DNA from: Candidatus Caldarchaeum subterraneum
GTDB taxonomy: Archaea; Thermoproteota; Nitrososphaeria_A; Caldarchaeales; Caldarchaeaceae
Length of the DNA: 64,000 nt
Assembly (NCBI GenBank): GCA_000270325.1
Contig: BA000048.1
Span: 1,539,481-1,603,480 of the forward strand
Direction of reading: 5' to 3'
This document shows, piece after piece, positions 15,558 through 22,503 of this stretch (within the stretch, counting starts at the first letter, position 1; each line of letters begins with the position of its first letter). The translations under genes were made by a program, and so were the position numbers. The notes below the pieces were generated by a model that was given only the letters and a program-made list of their open reading frames with translations, made no database searches and was not told where the DNA came from.

Positions 15558-17186
15558 ATGGTTGAGAGAAACAGGATAGGCCTCGGCACATGGATAGACA
15601 AGCTGGCTTGGGAGATTATTGAGAGGGAGAAGCAGCTTGGTAGAAGCCTTGAAAACATAAGAACAGAGGCAGGAATAGCGGCCTCAGGCTTCATACATAT
15701 CGGAAGCCTCTCAGACTCGGTCAGGGCCTATGCTGTTTCTCTCGCCATAAAAAATCTCGGATACGGCTCCGAGATGATACAGTTCGCCGATGACATGGAC
15801 GGGCTTAGAAGCGTCCCCGCCGAAATCCCAAAAGAATATGAGAAACATCTCCTGAAGCCTGTGTCGCTTATCCCAGACCCATTCAACTGCCACGAATCCT
15901 ACGCAGAACACATGGAGACGATGCTGCTTGACACACTAGCCAAAACAGGCGTCGAATCCAAGTTCTATAGAGGATTTCACGTCTACGGCAGCGGATTGCT
16001 CAAGAACCAGATATCGAAGATACTGGAGAATGCAAAAACAATCGGCGAAAAAATCTTAGAGCTCACTGGGCAGCAAAAGTTTGTTGAGACGCTGCCCTAC
16101 TTCCCGCTATGTGCTTCATGTGGAAGAATCTACACTACTCATGCTGAGAGCTTCGACCACAAGACGGGCCGTGTACACTATGTCTGCAAAGGAGTGAGCA
16201 TTAAGAAGAGATGGTTTGAGGGATGCGGATATGAGGGTGAGGCGGATATCTCCAAGGCAGATGGCAAGCTTTCCTGGAAGGTCGAGTGGGCTGCGAGGTG
16301 GGCCGCGCTCGATGTGCGTTTCGAGGCCTACGGCAAGGATTTGGCGGCTTCTGTAATGGTGAATGACTGGGTATCCGAAAACATACTCGGATACAAGCCG
16401 CCCAAACATGTCCAGTACGAGCTCTTCCTCGACGAGTCACGGCGAAAAATCTCCAAATCCAAGGGCGTCTCAGTCTTCACACCCCATGAATGGTTCAAGT
16501 ACGGCTCTCCTCAAAGCCTTGTACTGCTTTTCCTGAAGCGCATCAAGGGAACGAGAGTGGTGTCTCCACAGCTAATACCTGCTTTAATGGATGAGCTCGA
16601 TGCGTTGGGAGAGCAACATCGCAGAAACACCGGCGACCCGAGGAGAACAGGTCTATATGTCTATGCATACATGCTTAAACCCCCTGAAAAGCCTCCGACA
16701 AAAATCTCCTACAGCCTTCTCGTGTTTCTGGCTTCTATCGCCCCCGAAGACAGGGAGACCGATTTCGTGGTCTCGAGGCTGAAACGCTATGGCTACAAAG
16801 TGGATGAAGAAGTTTTGAGGAAGGTTGAGTACGCTGTCAATTATCAAAAAGTCTTCGGAAGACCTGAGGTGAAGCCTGTTGTTGTCGACGACAACATGCG
16901 ACGAGCTGTCGACGAGGTCGCTGAAGCCGTTAGAAACGCATCCAACCCCGATACACTCCAGTCAACCATATTCGAAATTGCGCGGCGATACATGATAAAC
17001 CCACCCCAGCTCTTTCAAACACTGTACAGAATCTTGATTGGACAAGACAGCGGCCCGAAGCTGGCGCCTTTCATAATAGAAGACTACGGTGTGGAACGTG
17101 CTTACGAGGCTTTGAAACGTGTCTCACAAGGCTTATATACGGCAAAAACAGAATATGGACACCAAAAGAGTGAAGAAAGGATTTGA
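15558..17186 (+). CDS. lysK: Lysyl-tRNA synthetase, class I
   Basis: This is the class I form of LysRS, used by many archaea in place of the class II enzyme. The HIGH-equivalent motif is SGFIHIGSLSD and the KMSKS-equivalent is KISKSKG near residue 300. A Cys pair (LCASCGR) and a second pair (VCKGV...GCGYEG) suggest zinc binding. An upstream ATG at 15501 would overlap the previous gene by 31 bp; I prefer ATG 15558 because the family N-terminus begins just after it. It overlaps the OB-fold gene by 4 bp (TTGA). Confidence 0.93.
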   Translation: MVERNRIGLGTWIDKLAWEIIEREKQLGRSLENIRTEAGIAASGFIHIGSLSDSVRAYAVSLAIKNLGYGSEMIQFADDMDGLRSVPAEIPKEYEKHLLKPVSLIPDPFNCHESYAEHMETMLLDTLAKTGVESKFYRGFHVYGSGLLKNQISKILENAKTIGEKILELTGQQKFVETLPYFPLCASCGRIYTTHAESFDHKTGRVHYVCKGVSIKKRWFEGCGYEGEADISKADGKLSWKVEWAARWAALDVRFEAYGKDLAASVMVNDWVSENILGYKPPKHVQYELFLDESRRKISKSKGVSVFTPHEWFKYGSPQSLVLLFLKRIKGTRVVSPQLIPALMDELDALGEQHRRNTGDPRRTGLYVYAYMLKPPEKPPTKISYSLLVFLASIAPEDRETDFVVSRLKRYGYKVDEEVLRKVEYAVNYQKVFGRPEVKPVVVDDNMRRAVDEVAEAVRNASNPDTLQSTIFEIARRYMINPPQLFQTLYRILIGQDSGPKLAPFIIEDYGVERAYEALKRVSQGLYTAKTEYGHQKSEERI

Positions 17187-17611
17187 GCGAATTGGTTAAG
17201 ATAGGAAGCCTGACCCCGCGGTCGCGGGGCGTAAACCTCGTCGCAAAAATTGTCGAAAAACCAGAGCCACGCGTTGTCTCTTCGCAGTACGACCAGTCAG
17301 AGCATCGGTTGACAGAGGCCTTGATAGCGGACGAAACAGGAGCCATCACACTTGTTCTCTGGGACGACAACATCGACCTTGTAAACGAAGGCGACTCGAT
17401 AAAGGTTGTAAACGGGTTCATCAAGCTTTTCAGGGGAAAAATGCAGCTAAACCTCGGCAAATTCGGTAAGATTGAGCCATCGGAGGAGCCTGTGACAGAA
17501 GTAAACACCGAGAACAACCTATCCCAGAAAGAAACATACGGATCGGAGGACAGGCCTCGTGGAGGCGGGTTTAGGTCCCGTGGGTTTCAGGGAAGAAGAC
17601 GCTTTAGGTAA
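17183..17611 (+). CDS. Single OB-fold ssDNA-binding protein with Arg/Gly-rich tail
   Basis: One OB-fold (about residues 4-95; LVKIGSLTPRSRGVNLVAKI, then ITLVLWDDNIDLVNEGDSIKV) resembles crenarchaeal/thaumarchaeal SSB or an RPA fragment. An acidic-polar linker and an RGG-like basic tail follow. Bacterial SSBs end in an acidic tip; here the tail is basic, so it may bind nucleic acid rather than recruit proteins. The TTG start overlaps the LysRS stop, giving coupled translation. Binding RNA rather than ssDNA is a fair alternative. Confidence 0.8.
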   Translation: MSELVKIGSLTPRSRGVNLVAKIVEKPEPRVVSSQYDQSEHRLTEALIADETGAITLVLWDDNIDLVNEGDSIKVVNGFIKLFRGKMQLNLGKFGKIEPSEEPVTEVNTENNLSQKETYGSEDRPRGGGFRSRGFQGRRRFR

Positions 17612-18872
17612 CCTCTAAAGGCTCCACTAACAACACACCGTTCTCTTTTCCCACAACTTTTATTCTATCGTTTTCTTTAACAGGTTTGACAGCTTTAGCG
17701 CGCCAGTATTCACCTTCGACGAAAACGTACCCGATTTGACCAGTTTCTATGTTTTCAGCCGCCCTTCCCAGTTTCGGCTCCGCGCCCATCGGCTTTTTCC
17801 TCTGGGCTTTTAATGCTTTGTAAATAAGAAACCCTAGGAAAGCGGCTACGAATACAGAGGTGGAAATGACAGTTGTCAGCAGCGTTCCTGTCCACTCTGG
17901 TGATACGAGGGACGGTGTCGGCGGATACCCACCGATCAGAATCATTCCAACGGTCAGTGAAACAAGTCCGCCGAACCCTGCGACACCGAAACCTGGGCTA
18001 AGAAGCTCATACAGCAAGAGGGCGGCGCCGAGGACAACGAGAAACGCTCCCGCCCAGTTTATGTTGAGGCCCTGGCCTACGAGGCCGAGAACAATCATCA
18101 ACCCACCTACGATTTCCCCACCCCATCCCGGGGTGGAGAGACCAACCAACAAGATCAATATTCCTAGGAAAAGGAGGATGCTCGAAACAATAGGGTCTGA
18201 TAGGGCTGACACAAGAGATTCAGTTACTCCTGGCCTTATTTCTGTTAAGACCGCGCTTCTTAGGTTGAGAGTTTTTTCACCCGTGACTGTTCGCACGGTG
18301 CGTCCATCCGCCAGAGCCAGCAACTCCTCCATATCAGAGGCAACAGCCTCTATCAGTCCTGCCTCAAGAGCCGAGGAGGGGTTAAAGTTCTTGTTCTCCA
18401 AAACGGTTTTCACAGCTTCATCACGGTTCCTGCCTCTCGACTCTGCCAAAGTCCCCATCTTCTCCGCGAAAAAGTTCAGAACCTTGCTCTCTGTTACAGG
18501 TTCTCCACCTGCTACGGGCTGCGCTGAGCCTATCAAGGTCTCGGGCGCCATGGCCGCGAAATGAGTCGACATCAAGATGTATGTCCCGGCTGATAGAGCC
18601 TTTCCTCCAACTGGGTAAACGAATCCTATGACGGGGGTCGGAGACCTCTCAATCGCCTCTACAATCCTAAGCATAGCGTCCGCGCTTCCGCCCAGCGTGT
18701 TAATCGTGATGACCACTGCTTCGTAGCGAGACGATGCCAGCGTCCGCTCAATATACATAGCCGTTCCTGATGAAATGTATCCATCTATGGTGAGATAGAG
18801 AACTTGAGGAGTTTCGCTATAACTGGACAACAGTAGGACGCTGCACACAAGCAGGAGAGCGGCTATTCTCAT
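17604..18872 (-). CDS. nfeD: NfeD-family membrane serine protease (1510-N type)
   Basis: A long NfeD with an N-terminal ClpP-like protease domain, a four- to five-helix membrane region and a C-terminal OB-fold. After the signal peptide (MRIAALLLVCSVLLLSS), the catalytic Ser is in GGKALSAGTY (Ser94) and the Lys is near residue 138, matching Ser97/Lys138 of Pyrococcus PH1510. Membrane segments cluster at about 230-360. The start is ATG 18872, overlapping the stomatin stop; the frame extends upstream but only through stomatin coding. The Pyrococcus pair cleaves the C-terminus of stomatin, so this operon probably does the same. Confidence 0.92.
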   Translation of the reverse strand: MRIAALLLVCSVLLLSSYSETPQVLYLTIDGYISSGTAMYIERTLASSRYEAVVITINTLGGSADAMLRIVEAIERSPTPVIGFVYPVGGKALSAGTYILMSTHFAAMAPETLIGSAQPVAGGEPVTESKVLNFFAEKMGTLAESRGRNRDEAVKTVLENKNFNPSSALEAGLIEAVASDMEELLALADGRTVRTVTGEKTLNLRSAVLTEIRPGVTESLVSALSDPIVSSILLFLGILILLVGLSTPGWGGEIVGGLMIVLGLVGQGLNINWAGAFLVVLGAALLLYELLSPGFGVAGFGGLVSLTVGMILIGGYPPTPSLVSPEWTGTLLTTVISTSVFVAAFLGFLIYKALKAQRKKPMGAEPKLGRAAENIETGQIGYVFVEGEYWRAKAVKPVKENDRIKVVGKENGVLLVEPLEVT

Positions 18873-19681
18873 TCTTTCTTCTGAGAGGTTAATCCGAGTA
18901 TTGTGCCGAGTTCCTTCGTGGCGGATTCGGTTACGACAATCATGTTTTTCTCGCGGGCGATTTCGCTCCAAGTCTGCAGCTCCCTGAGCCTAAGCGCAAT
19001 CGGGTGCTGTGCATAGTAATCAGCCGCCTGAGCCATTTTCTCAGCCGCCATAAGCTCACCCTCCGCAGCAATTATCCTGCTTCTTCTCTCCCTCTCAGCC
19101 TCCGCCTGCTTCGCGATGGCACGCTGCATCATCTCCGGAATCACTACATCCCTCAGCGCCACGGTAGTGACCTTGATACCCCAAGGCTCAGTTGCCTCAT
19201 CAAGTATCTGCTGAATCCGCTTGTTCAGCTCCTCCCGTCGTGTCAAAAGATCATCCAGCTCAACCTGTCCAATCACATCTCTCAAGGTGGTCTGCGCCAA
19301 AAGAGCAGAGGCTGTGAAGTAATCCTTCACCTTCAAAACAGCCATCATCGGGTCCGTGACCCTGAAGTATACGATTGCGTCGACATCGACAGTGACGTTA
19401 TCCTTTGTTATAATCCGCTGCTTGGGGACATCGAAGGTAACCAGCCTTAGGTCGATAATTCTTCTCCTGTCAATTACTGGCAGAATCACGACCACCCCGG
19501 GACCCTTAACACCTATAAGACGTCCTAACCTGAATATCACCGCCCTCTCATACTCTGTCACAACCTTTATCGAAGCCGACAATATGATGATCAGCAGCAG
19601 CAATATTAGGGAGAGTGGGAGAAGCAGGTCCGGAGTGATTATTGAAACAAATAACATGTTACTCGATGGAGACATGTCCAT
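18869..19681 (-). CDS. Stomatin/prohibitin (SPFH) membrane protein
   Basis: An N-terminal membrane helix (about residues 10-34) is followed by the SPFH domain (EYERAVIFRLGRLIGVKGPGV onward; VDVDAIVYFRVTDP) and a helical region with AKQAEAERERRSRIIAAEGE near residues 185-204. These proteins oligomerise in membrane microdomains. The C-terminus VTESATKELG...LTSQKKE would be the protease target if the Pyrococcus model holds. The ATG lies about 25 bp from a TATATAAG element at 19701-19710. It overlaps nfeD by 4 bp. Confidence 0.93.
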   Translation of the reverse strand: MDMSPSSNMLFVSIITPDLLLPLSLILLLLIIILSASIKVVTEYERAVIFRLGRLIGVKGPGVVVILPVIDRRRIIDLRLVTFDVPKQRIITKDNVTVDVDAIVYFRVTDPMMAVLKVKDYFTASALLAQTTLRDVIGQVELDDLLTRREELNKRIQQILDEATEPWGIKVTTVALRDVVIPEMMQRAIAKQAEAERERRSRIIAAEGELMAAEKMAQAADYYAQHPIALRLRELQTWSEIAREKNMIVVTESATKELGTILGLTSQKKE

Positions 19682-19710: not shown

Positions 19711-19821
19711 CATGTTTCCAAAACAATACAGACATAACTCCCAGTTAATACCCAGACTAGCTTTGACACCATGGGTTGAGTTAGCTTTTATACCGCTGCT
19801 GATTGAATTACAAACGGTAAA

Positions 19822-21255
19822 ATGGAAGAGGAAAAAACACAGCCAACACCCATCCCCAGTGAGGTAGAACAGGTCAACCTACAGCAAATGGAGGAGGCGT
19901 TGAAGCAGGCGGGTGTGCCGCAGACACAGCTGAAAAGATACATAAAAGGTGTCAATAAGCTGCGACAGCTGGAAAAACAATATGGAAAACCGTTCCAAGT
20001 TCTCTTCAGAGAATATGAGAAGAGGTTCCGCGACAGCGTCAAACTCGAATACAGCATAAACGAGCTTCTGGAAAAACGGCGTAAAATCGAGGAAGACCTC
20101 CGCGTATACATGGAGCAGCAAAGGCTTACGTTGGAGACAGTCAACCGCGTCAACAACATAATCCGCAGCCTCGAGAAATACGGCGTAAACATAGGTCACC
20201 TTGAGAATTTGGCAAAAGTTGCCGCAAAAGTGTCCGAGACCGGCACAGACTTTAAACAGGTTTTTGAAACCTTTGCAAAGCTCGAGGAAGCTGAGAATAG
20301 GCTGAAAGAAACACAAGCCATGATTGAGGAAAACGAAAAAAGGCTAGAGGAGGTTGAGACCGAGCTACAGAGAAAGATTGCCAGGCTTAGAGAAGTTTCT
20401 GGGGTTGAGCCAGACATTGAGAAACTGAGCGAAACACTCAGCAAGCTTCGAACAGAGGTAGAGTTGCTTGAAAAAAGAGAGGAGGAGCTGAGGCAGAAAA
20501 ACAACGAACTTGCTAGAGAGTATGAGGCGTTGCTTGGCTTCAGAACAGACACCGCCTCTCTGCTGAAATTGATTGAGGAAAAGAGGAACGAGCTCAACCG
20601 GTTGGATGAAGAGCTGGCGAGGGTGCGGGATACACTTCAAACTCTCGAGGAAGAAGTCGCGTCGGCTAGGTCATTGCTTCTGCTGCTTCAGAACCCGGAG
20701 CTGGTGAAGAAAGAGGATTTGGAGACACTTTCTAGGCAGCTGGCTAACCTTTCGAACATCAAAGCAGGTCAGATGCCTGAGCTTAAGGCTCTCGAGCCTT
20801 CGCTGCTTGAAAACGTTCGGAAACGGGTTGTTGAGCTGGTTATGCCAGTCATCAGGTCCGAGCTTGTCCCACACTGGGTTTTCGAGAAGCTTGAAAAAGA
20901 GTTTAAGGAGGTTGCCGCCAGAAAGGCTCAGCTGGAGGAGGAGAACGAGAGACTTAGGAACGAGCTCAACCAGCTCCGGGGGACCAAGCCGCAGACCGCT
21001 GTGCAGGCTGTTCCTCAGCTGCCGAGAAAATTCCAGCTCCTGAAAAAGAAAACCGAGCTTTCAACAGACAGCGGCATAAAGATAAAGCTAAAATGTGTTT
21101 ACTGCCAGAACTCATCGCTGATGATTCTTCCAAACAAACAGGAGCTGGAGGAGGCAGCATCTTCAAACGATGTTCTTGTCACGACATGTGGTTCATGCGG
21201 CAAAGACATACCCATCGACCCACGGTTTTTGATAGACAGATTTTTCAAAGGGTGA
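19822..21255 (+). CDS. Coiled-coil protein with C-terminal zinc ribbon, unknown function
   Basis: The 477-residue protein is almost entirely charged heptads from about residue 55 to 395, with breaks near 120-150 (NIGHLENLAKVAAKV) and 290-330. It ends in a zinc ribbon: CVYC and CGSCG pairs in the last 65 residues. It has no ATP-binding head, so it is not an SMC or Rad50. The N-terminus is acidic and Pro/Gln-rich. It lies 6 bp before a small gene and then hjc, so it is likely co-expressed with a DNA-junction nuclease. A TTTATACC element at about 19786-19793 is about 30 bp upstream of the ATG. I do not recognise a family. Confidence 0.75.
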   Translation: MEEEKTQPTPIPSEVEQVNLQQMEEALKQAGVPQTQLKRYIKGVNKLRQLEKQYGKPFQVLFREYEKRFRDSVKLEYSINELLEKRRKIEEDLRVYMEQQRLTLETVNRVNNIIRSLEKYGVNIGHLENLAKVAAKVSETGTDFKQVFETFAKLEEAENRLKETQAMIEENEKRLEEVETELQRKIARLREVSGVEPDIEKLSETLSKLRTEVELLEKREEELRQKNNELAREYEALLGFRTDTASLLKLIEEKRNELNRLDEELARVRDTLQTLEEEVASARSLLLLLQNPELVKKEDLETLSRQLANLSNIKAGQMPELKALEPSLLENVRKRVVELVMPVIRSELVPHWVFEKLEKEFKEVAARKAQLEEENERLRNELNQLRGTKPQTAVQAVPQLPRKFQLLKKKTELSTDSGIKIKLKCVYCQNSSLMILPNKQELEEAASSNDVLVTTCGSCGKDIPIDPRFLIDRFFKG

Positions 21256-21261
21256 GAAAGT

Positions 21262-21639
21262 TTGCGGAAGAGCCATCCTATCGTTCAGATGCTGAAATGG
21301 AAGACTCGGCTGCTCAGCGAGGAAGAGATCATCCAGATACTGTCTGCTATCGGTGGAATAGACCGTAACCCCTTTACGTTGACGGACTTGACTGAGAAGC
21401 TTCCCGACTCTATTTCTAAAAATGAGAAGAAAAGACGAAGTGTCTCCACTTTTCTCTCCAACCTGGTTGAGATCGGCTATTTGACGAAGCCGTCCGAACG
21501 CAAGTGGCTGAAGAACGCCTCCACCCTAAGCATATACCTAAGCCCGCTGTTGATAGAGCTTAACGACATGGAGCGCCATTCCACACAGTCTTCTGAAAAA
21601 AGCGAGCGTAGAATCATCCAGCTCGAGGACAAGAGATAA
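21262..21639 (+). CDS. Small unknown protein, possible winged helix, between coiled-coil gene and hjc
   Basis: The 125-residue protein starts at TTG 21262. Residues 15-75 (LLSEEEIIQILSAIG..., RRSVSTFLSNLVEIGYLTKP) look like a winged-helix arrangement with a recognition helix and wing. The rest is polar. Its stop shares the A of the hjc ATG (TAATG overlap), so the two are coupled. No function is assigned. Confidence 0.6.
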   Translation: MRKSHPIVQMLKWKTRLLSEEEIIQILSAIGGIDRNPFTLTDLTEKLPDSISKNEKKRRSVSTFLSNLVEIGYLTKPSERKWLKNASTLSIYLSPLLIELNDMERHSTQSSEKSERRIIQLEDKR

Positions 21640-22067
21640 TGCCGCGGAAACCCGCCGACCCTACCTCGCCTAGGTACAAGTCACGCCTTGGGTACGAAGG
21701 TGAATATAGTTTGCTGAGACGGTTTATTGAAGTGGAGGAGAACGGGTTTTACGCCGTGAGGACACCTGGCAGTGGAACAGGTAAGATGGCTAAGCCCGAT
21801 ATTATAGCGGTCGATAAAGGAGAGCTTCTGGCTATTGAGGTGAAGAGCAGCAGCAAGGATTATGCCGCCTTCTCCGCCGAGCAGGTGGGGAGGCTGCTAA
21901 AATTTGTGGAAAGGTTTATGATTGTTTGTCCACACTGCGGGGGCAAGATACATCCCAAGCCTGTGGCGGCTGTTAGGTTTGTGGGAAGAGGCTGGGAGTT
22001 CATAGACCTAAGCAAGTCGGAGCCAGGTTCAGGTCTCTTCGTGAGGTGGCGACCTGATGGTCGATGA
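21639..22067 (+). CDS. hjc: Archaeal Holliday junction resolvase Hjc
   Basis: Hjc is a dimeric nuclease that cuts four-way junctions symmetrically. The nuclease core is intact: Glu in GYEGEY, RTPGSG, Asp in KPDIIAV, and Glu-x-Lys in AIEVKSSS, followed by SAEQVGRLLKFV. An insertion with CPHCGG plus a nearby histidine suggests a half zinc site not usual in the shortest members. It overlaps the upstream small gene by 1 bp and the Lrp-type gene by 11 bp. Confidence 0.93.
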   Translation: MPRKPADPTSPRYKSRLGYEGEYSLLRRFIEVEENGFYAVRTPGSGTGKMAKPDIIAVDKGELLAIEVKSSSKDYAAFSAEQVGRLLKFVERFMIVCPHCGGKIHPKPVAAVRFVGRGWEFIDLSKSEPGSGLFVRWRPDGR

Positions 22068-22503
22068 ACTGGACCTTAAGATATTGAATATTCTTTTCGA
22101 GGATGGTAGAGCTTCTTTCGCCGACATCGGGCGCAAACTTGGTGTTAGCGAGAATACCGTCAGGTTTCGTTTTCAGAAGTTGGTGAAGACGGGTGTTATC
22201 CGGAAGGTTACCGTGCTGGTTGACCATGTTAAGCTGGGGCTGAAGAACTCCGCCGCTCTGATGCTCAAAATAGACCCCACAAAAATAAACCGTGTATTGG
22301 ATGAGCTAAAACAGCTGCGCGAAATCGCGAACATCTACCAGCTTTCAGGAGACTTCGACGCCATAGCAGTTGCCTACGGCCGCGACCTCGACCACATACG
22401 GGAAATAGTGGAGCAGATAAAAAAAATCCCAGGCATTATCTCGGTCAACACATTGGTAACCCTTAGGGTCGTTAAAACAGACACACGCTACGGACTCGTC
22501 TAA
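22057..22503 (+). CDS. Lrp/AsnC-family transcription regulator
   Basis: The N-terminal winged HTH (LDLKILNILFEDGRASFADIGRKLGVSENTVRFR...) and the C-terminal RAM-type ligand domain (about residues 70-145, with GDFDAIAVAYGRD) are both complete. Such proteins bind amino acids or related metabolites and assemble as octamers. It starts 11 bp before the end of hjc. A regulator tied to a recombination gene is unusual but may simply reflect dense packing. Confidence 0.9.
   Translation: MVDELDLKILNILFEDGRASFADIGRKLGVSENTVRFRFQKLVKTGVIRKVTVLVDHVKLGLKNSAALMLKIDPTKINRVLDELKQLREIANIYQLSGDFDAIAVAYGRDLDHIREIVEQIKKIPGIISVNTLVTLRVVKTDTRYGLV

Follow-up and report, generated by a model that had tools for sequence, protein, structure and literature searches.

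Genes and predicted products at the locus

The three adjoining genes considered here lie on the forward strand of a 64,000-nucleotide stretch of archaeal DNA (the window), taken from a Candidatus Caldarchaeum genome that consists of one contig of 1,680,938 bases. They encode a long helical protein (here termed CC), a small predicted winged-helix protein (wH) and a Holliday junction resolvase of the Hjc family (Table 1). The wH start lies 6 bp beyond the CC stop and the wH stop shares one base with hjc, these and the other gaps and overlaps given below being approximate because gene starts were taken from the longest open frames. An SSB gene lies upstream on the same strand, 2210 bp from CC, and the interval holds two genes on the opposite strand (17604-19681), coding for NfeD-like and Band 7 proteins. 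The first-pass annotation had mentioned neither this SSB gene nor the Lrp/AsnC-type gene that overlaps hjc. Comparison with the nearest relative (G003) yields dN/dS values of 0.089 for CC, 0.044 for wH, 0.031 for hjc and 0.017 for SSB. The first three genes are thus all under purifying selection, and values of 0.03-0.09 rule out a pseudogene or frame artefact for any of them.

Table 1. Features of the CC-wH-hjc locus, in positions of the window
Feature	Positions	Strand	Description
SSB	17183..17611	+	single OB-fold ssDNA-binding protein
Candidate archaeal TATA element CTTTTATA	19785..19792	+	identified by eye; end lies 30 nt upstream of the CC start
CC	19822..21255	+	477 aa; predicted C-terminal zinc ribbon (C425, C428, C456, C459)
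wH	21262..21639	+	125 aa; TTG start; predicted winged helix; no family match above cut-off
hjc	21639..22067	+	142 aa; Holliday junction resolvase Hjc; class-typical CPxC insertion
Lrp/AsnC-type regulator gene	22057..22503	+	11-bp overlap with the end of hjc

Profiles of CC and wH were searched across a sample of 398 genomes of the phylum, comprising 44 of the class to which the source organism belongs and 354 others, with a profile threshold of E 0.001. The class genomes fall into four families: f1 (Caldarchaeum, Pelearchaeum and relatives, 8 genomes), f2 (12 genomes), f3 (2 genomes) and f4 (Terraquivivens, Geocrenenecus, Wolframiiraptor, Benthortus and relatives, 22 genomes).

CC consists largely of helices with heptad periodicity and carries four cysteines in a unit at its C-terminus. 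Its AlphaFold2 model (mean pLDDT 74.7, pTM 0.24) predicts helices at residues 58-119, 144-238, 244-290 and 351-385, followed by a C-terminal beta unit arranged around the four cysteines; at such a pTM the relative arrangement of the domains is not reliable. Hydrophobic periodicity at 3.5 residues exceeds that of shuffled sequences in all four helices (p at most 0.0012), and in helix 351-385 the signal at 3.6 residues (1.21) nearly equals that at 3.5 (1.28), so that a coil is not separable there from an ordinary amphipathic helix. Residues C425, C428, C456 and C459 are invariant in an alignment of 17 CC sequences from three families. In the model they form two cysteine knuckles on a small predicted beta fold (strands 416-424, 431-437, 452-455 and 462-465), as in a zinc ribbon. 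In some Wolframiiraptor-type sequences (L079, L081, L082 and L084) the second knuckle reads CxC and is thereby shorter by one residue, and the ribbon alignment (A7) comprises 16 of the 17 rows, L079, with its CxC knuckle, being omitted.

Family searches did not place this protein. No Pfam zinc-ribbon family lies above cut-off in the window CC, and the Pfam matches of the alignment members are all weak, an example being Zn_ribbon_3 (3.9e-5) in two of the 17 aligned C-termini of CC; Pfam cut-offs apply here to the first alignment member only, the other CC and wH members being listed without them, and NCBIfam was run with the window proteins. Within these limits, neither CC nor wH of the window has a Pfam or NCBIfam match over the curated cut-off. 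The long heptad coil of CC is reminiscent of the SMC, Rad50 and ASRP proteins, whose profiles match it weakly, far below cut-off and over the coil only; unlike them, CC ends in a predicted zinc ribbon, and a nucleotide-binding ATPase head is absent from both its family matches and its model, in agreement with the first-pass annotation. We rejected CC as an SMC or ASRP protein because the source genome has a separate SMC-like protein and, besides it, an SMC-related open frame of 599 aa. Profiles of the CC C-terminus, of the N-terminus and of the ribbon alone yielded generic coils or nothing convincing among solved structures, and in a Foldseek search with the CC model nothing reached E 0.001, the top match standing at 0.18.

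The AlphaFold2 model of wH (mean pLDDT 84.6) shows a small winged-helix protein in which the recognition helix and the wing are basic; there is one additional helix at the N-terminus and a long one at the C-terminus. The predicted order of elements is that of a helix-turn-helix followed by a beta wing (helices 20-32, 40-44 and 55-71; strands 74-78 and 81-84). In an alignment of 28 sequences, drawn from f1 and f4 only, 24 positions are invariant, several of them within the recognition helix and wing, and they include R58, R59, S78, R80, K81 and W82. No match in the fold searches reached E 0.001 or a Z of 8, a result that holds for the families represented in the searched set. The matches obtained are generic, all with Z under 8, and comprise Stn1, DpnI, BpsA, linker histone, MukE and Fur. 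wH shares the winged-helix fold with Stn1/Rpa2, MukE, IclR and DpnI but has extra terminal helices, and a sequence relation to these proteins was not found; the fold matches do not discriminate among them. Searching the wH profile against solved structures produced nothing convincing either, and no fold or sequence match from these profile and fold searches names a function for CC or wH. With the terms used, searches of the open-licence PMC literature turned up no paper describing either of them.

The third gene is readily recognized. Its product matches the Pfam Hjc family (PF01870) with 65 bits against a cut-off of 21.1 and falls below the equivalog cut-off of NF040854 (64.2 against 70 bits), for which reason it is classed here as an Hjc-family variant; the nearest solved chains are those of Hjc (1gef and 2wcz). 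The earlier statement that no described counterpart is known is supported for CC and wH, as far as the family and literature searches above go. An alignment of 29 Hjc sequences, one of them a fragment, was built from part of the class hjc genes. In it E20, E22 and D54 are kept in all 29 rows, and E67 and K69 in all 28 rows that cover them; we take these five residues to be the acidic and lysine active-site positions. Where the class Hjc differs from other archaeal Hjc proteins is at residues 97-111 (21927-21971), which contain about 11 extra residues with a CPxC motif relative to 1gef. This insertion is present in 28 of 28 class sequences covering the site and in none of the 30 best-scoring Hjc proteins from outside the class, and it was absent by eye from five further non-class Hjc. 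The one CxxC seen among those best 30 lies upstream of the domain. Judging from the motif, a single zinc could be bound between the two CPxC half-sites of an Hjc dimer.

Distribution and gene order in the class

The C-terminal profile of CC matched 45 genomes. Of these, 40 belong to the 44 of the class, with E-values no higher than 1.1e-44, and five lie outside it and match more weakly, led by G104 at 3e-11. The wH profile likewise matched 45 genomes: all 44 of the class and one other, at 4.7e-4. Within the sampled genomes, both families hence appear to be nearly confined to the class. The class genomes in which the CC C-terminal profile has no match are G009, G012, G014 and G028, three of which are 91-98% complete, and all four retain hjc and wH. 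The presence of wH in 44 of 44 genomes and of CC in 40 of 44 disfavors an obligate CC-wH pair. The N-terminal domain of CC has a narrower distribution (30 of 30 f1 and f4 genomes and 0 of 14 f2 and f3 genomes at E 1e-4, or 30 of the 44 in the class), which makes the C-terminal part the constant core of the protein. The segment conserved in all three CC-bearing families is the C-terminal helical segment with the ribbon, residues about 290-477.

Gene order differs markedly between families. All eight f1 genomes carry CC, wH and hjc in tandem on one strand, neighboring genes either overlapping or being separated by no more than about 35 bp, and in six of them, the window included, an Lrp/AsnC-type gene follows hjc. 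The CC gene of one f1 genome (G006) is split over two contig ends. In f4, SSB, CC and wH lie on one strand in 22 of 22 genomes, with 21-229 bp from SSB to CC in every case, and hjc stands tail to tail with them. The convergent 3' ends of wH and hjc overlap by 6 to 140 bp in 21 of these 22 genomes (e.g. L076:8821-8960 and L080:6548-6684). In another f4 feature, confined to G031 (L074:8928-10280), LysRS and SSB form one open frame, which may be a fusion or an assembly error. Both f3 genomes lack CC and have wH and hjc adjoining tail to tail. An SSB gene is also found upstream of CC on the same strand in seven of eight f1 genomes (in G001, the remaining one, the contig is too short) and in two of the ten f2 genomes with CC. 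The positions taken by the NfeD-like and Band 7 genes in the window are occupied likewise in other f1 genomes and in two f2 genomes, and are empty in f4.

The arrangement in f2 is different again. CC is found in 10 of its 12 genomes, shortened to 208-325 aa, and in all ten the 9.6-17 kb stretch around it contains no intact hjc or wH. One of them (G020) has a second, broken copy of hjc (L097:12147-12631) about 3.5 kb from the short CC, and in four f2 genomes the short CC is followed by a small gene of about 80-90 aa with no Pfam match (L092:7250-7498 and relatives). The wH gene of f2 follows RpoD-eL18-uL13 in nine of nine loci (L230-L238), which represent nine of the 12 genomes, G011, G018 and G024 being left out. 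Six of seven loci from f1, f3 and f4 have uS9 behind uL13, as judged by eye with one Pfam-checked (the G035 locus is uninformative), and for this reason the f2 position of wH looks derived.

Over the 40 genomes that have CC, hjc is thus on the same strand in 8, convergent in 22 and apart in 10, and a conserved same-strand CC-wH-hjc operon is not found wherever CC occurs. With hjc in either orientation, the three genes are contiguous in 30 of the 44 class genomes, or 30 of the 40 with CC. An overlapping, named set of genomes gives a similar picture, since 28 of 28 wH loci carry CC and hjc, of which 7 have hjc on the wH strand and 21 have it on the opposite one; the query for this set was built from f1, f3 and f4 and cannot show f2. 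The first-pass annotation, whose observations are confirmed, had taken the locus for what looks like a dedicated module at recombination intermediates or replication forks. This reading is supported in part, but not as a dedicated Hjc module, since the same-strand order is restricted to one family of eight genomes, 22 genomes have the genes convergent, 10 of 10 f2 genomes with CC have them apart and hjc and wH persist in the four genomes without CC. As to whether CC stays beside hjc, which it had proposed to examine, the genes are contiguous in 30 genomes and apart in f2. Orthologs away from hjc, which together with a lack of interaction it had named as evidence against its own proposal, hence occur in one of the three CC-bearing families. 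Adjacency to hjc in one genome is hence insufficient to infer an Hjc complex.

Other genes share this neighborhood. The block also retains genes for a class I LysRS and a D-aminoacyl-tRNA deacylase, two names that were first given by eye and then confirmed, as well as a methyltransferase-like gene, and since these translation genes are conserved there too, adjacency to hjc is weak evidence of a functional link. The block may also include nre, which belongs to a DNA-repair gene family. In genus g7, nre lies 50-103 bp from hjc and on its strand in six of six genomes; it is 1.9-4.0 kb from hjc in 10 other f1 and f4 genomes and was not seen in the locus stretches of the remaining 14. The support that nre might lend to an Hjc pathway is weakened because, according to a study of Haloferax (PMC4929162), NreA acts with UvrABC in a pathway apart from hjc. 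On the other hand, the contiguity of the three genes with hjc in either orientation and the wH-hjc pair of f3, which persists without CC, mildly favor a functional relationship.

Possible roles of CC and wH

The best single explanation that we can offer, and one that we put forward tentatively and at well under an even chance, is that CC and wH are lineage-specific nucleic-acid binders encoded in an SSB/hjc/nre neighborhood and auxiliary to the handling of ssDNA, forks or recombination, rather than dedicated partners of Hjc. CC would dimerize through its coil, with the ribbon as a possible binding site for single-stranded nucleic acid or for a protein; wH would bind duplex DNA, probably as a dimer. 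More speculatively, the two may help to organize SSB-coated ssDNA, stalled forks or recombination intermediates, and Hjc might then be one enzyme of their pathway without being an obligate partner. The gene-order pattern is consistent with such an auxiliary role, with SSB preceding CC, CC-wH-hjc contiguity, the f3 wH-hjc pair and nre near hjc all pointing in this direction, as do the invariant cysteines of CC and the invariant residues of wH, the winged-helix model and the purifying selection. Against it we count the tRNA-related genes of the block, the f2 wH behind RpoD-eL18-uL13, the absence of CC from 4 of 44 genomes, the want of any match that names a function and the separation of Haloferax nreA from hjc (PMC4929162). 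If forks or recombination intermediates are what the pair acts on, an entire class of archaea would possess a replication or repair accessory without a described counterpart, and the single OB-fold SSB of the class would gain candidate partners. Otherwise, wH is still a gene without an assigned function in all 44 class genomes searched.

The main competitor to an auxiliary role is plain inheritance of the neighborhood, by which CC and wH would have functions unrelated to Hjc and lie near SSB and hjc through conserved class gene order. It pools possibilities such as a regulatory role for wH, or one tied to RNA polymerase or to the ribosome, and a structural role for CC, and because several unspecific possibilities are pooled in it we hold it to be slightly more probable than the best single explanation, though also short of an even chance. 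Conservation of the tRNA-related neighbors in the same block fits inheritance, and so do the changes in hjc orientation, the g7 arrangement, in which hjc follows nre on its own strand, the transcription and translation context of wH in f2 and the fact that CC and wH are not lost jointly. It accounts less easily for CC-wH-hjc contiguity with hjc pointing either way and for wH-hjc contiguity in f3 without CC, and the f2 location of wH looks derived, given the uS9 gene that follows uL13 in six of seven f1, f3 and f4 loci.

It seems unlikely that the three proteins form a dedicated complex on recombination intermediates, in which CC would be the scaffold, wH would bind the duplex and Hjc would act as the nuclease. 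Such a complex would explain the close or overlapping same-strand genes of all eight f1 genomes and the contiguity in 30 of 44 genomes, but it is at odds with the convergent hjc of 22 of 22 f4 genomes, with the lack of an intact hjc near CC in any of the ten f2 genomes with CC and with the four genomes that keep hjc and wH without CC. Quite unlikely, too, is a bolder version of the auxiliary role, in which CC and wH would form a class-specific ssDNA- or fork-processing complex on SSB that passes branched DNA to a zinc-carrying Hjc variant, and which would make them an undescribed, class-unique recombination accessory.

CC and wH might also be chromosome-organization accessories working with SMC, which the class retains, while no ScpA kleisin is seen in it. 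SMC-like open frames of 1128-1207 aa are present in eight of eight genomes tested, all below the TIGR02169 cut-off, while ScpA (PF02616) is found in none of the eight (the control matched in 9 of 14), and MukE winged helices appear among the wH fold matches with Z 6.6-7.1. These MukE matches are, however, tied with unrelated winged helices, a gene link of CC or wH to SMC was not seen, and the Sulfolobus control is also without a ScpA match, so that the absence of ScpA needs no substitute; we therefore consider an SMC accessory decidedly unlikely. Finally, we hold it to be very improbable that wH is a free-standing analog of the Rpa2/Stn1 winged-helix hub and that SSB, CC and wH make up an RPA-like assembly in pieces. 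In favor of this are the match to yeast Stn1 (Z 7.8 over 66 residues), a Foldseek hit to the winged helix of P. abyssi Rpa2 (9f2a_C, E 0.19), the SSB gene adjoining CC-wH and the interaction of the archaeal Rpa2 winged helix with primase and PolD described in PMC11686378. Against it, the Stn1 match has a Z under 8 and ranks level with those to DpnI, BpsA, Fur and linker histones, wH is extended by another helix at the N-terminus and a long one at the C-terminus, and no sequence match links wH to Rpa2 or Stn1.

Matches outside the class

Six genomes with weak hits outside the class were inspected (G104, G327, G264, G356, G132 and G213), leaving aside G135, G237 and, from a further search, the outside hits other than G104. 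The G104 hit is a short ribbon-like open frame in which the profile match runs over a stop, and that of G327 (L240:4885-5622) is a TIR_2 protein whose ribbon-like C-terminal end matches the CC profile over the ribbon (E 4.4e-5). The G264 hit, which adjoins a ParA-like gene, is a small open frame that by eye looks like a common winged helix, and that of G356 is a helical protein. In G132 and G213, which are other Thermoproteota, the matching proteins (L337:4010-5527 and L338:4754-6127) are ones that we named by eye archaeal HTH-coiled-coil proteins. They contain a helical stretch resembling part of the CC N-terminal domain, which they match weakly (E 7.4e-8 and 5.4e-5), and differ from CC in having an N-terminally fused helix-turn-helix and no zinc ribbon. 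CC and wH could represent a split version of this HTH-coiled-coil architecture.
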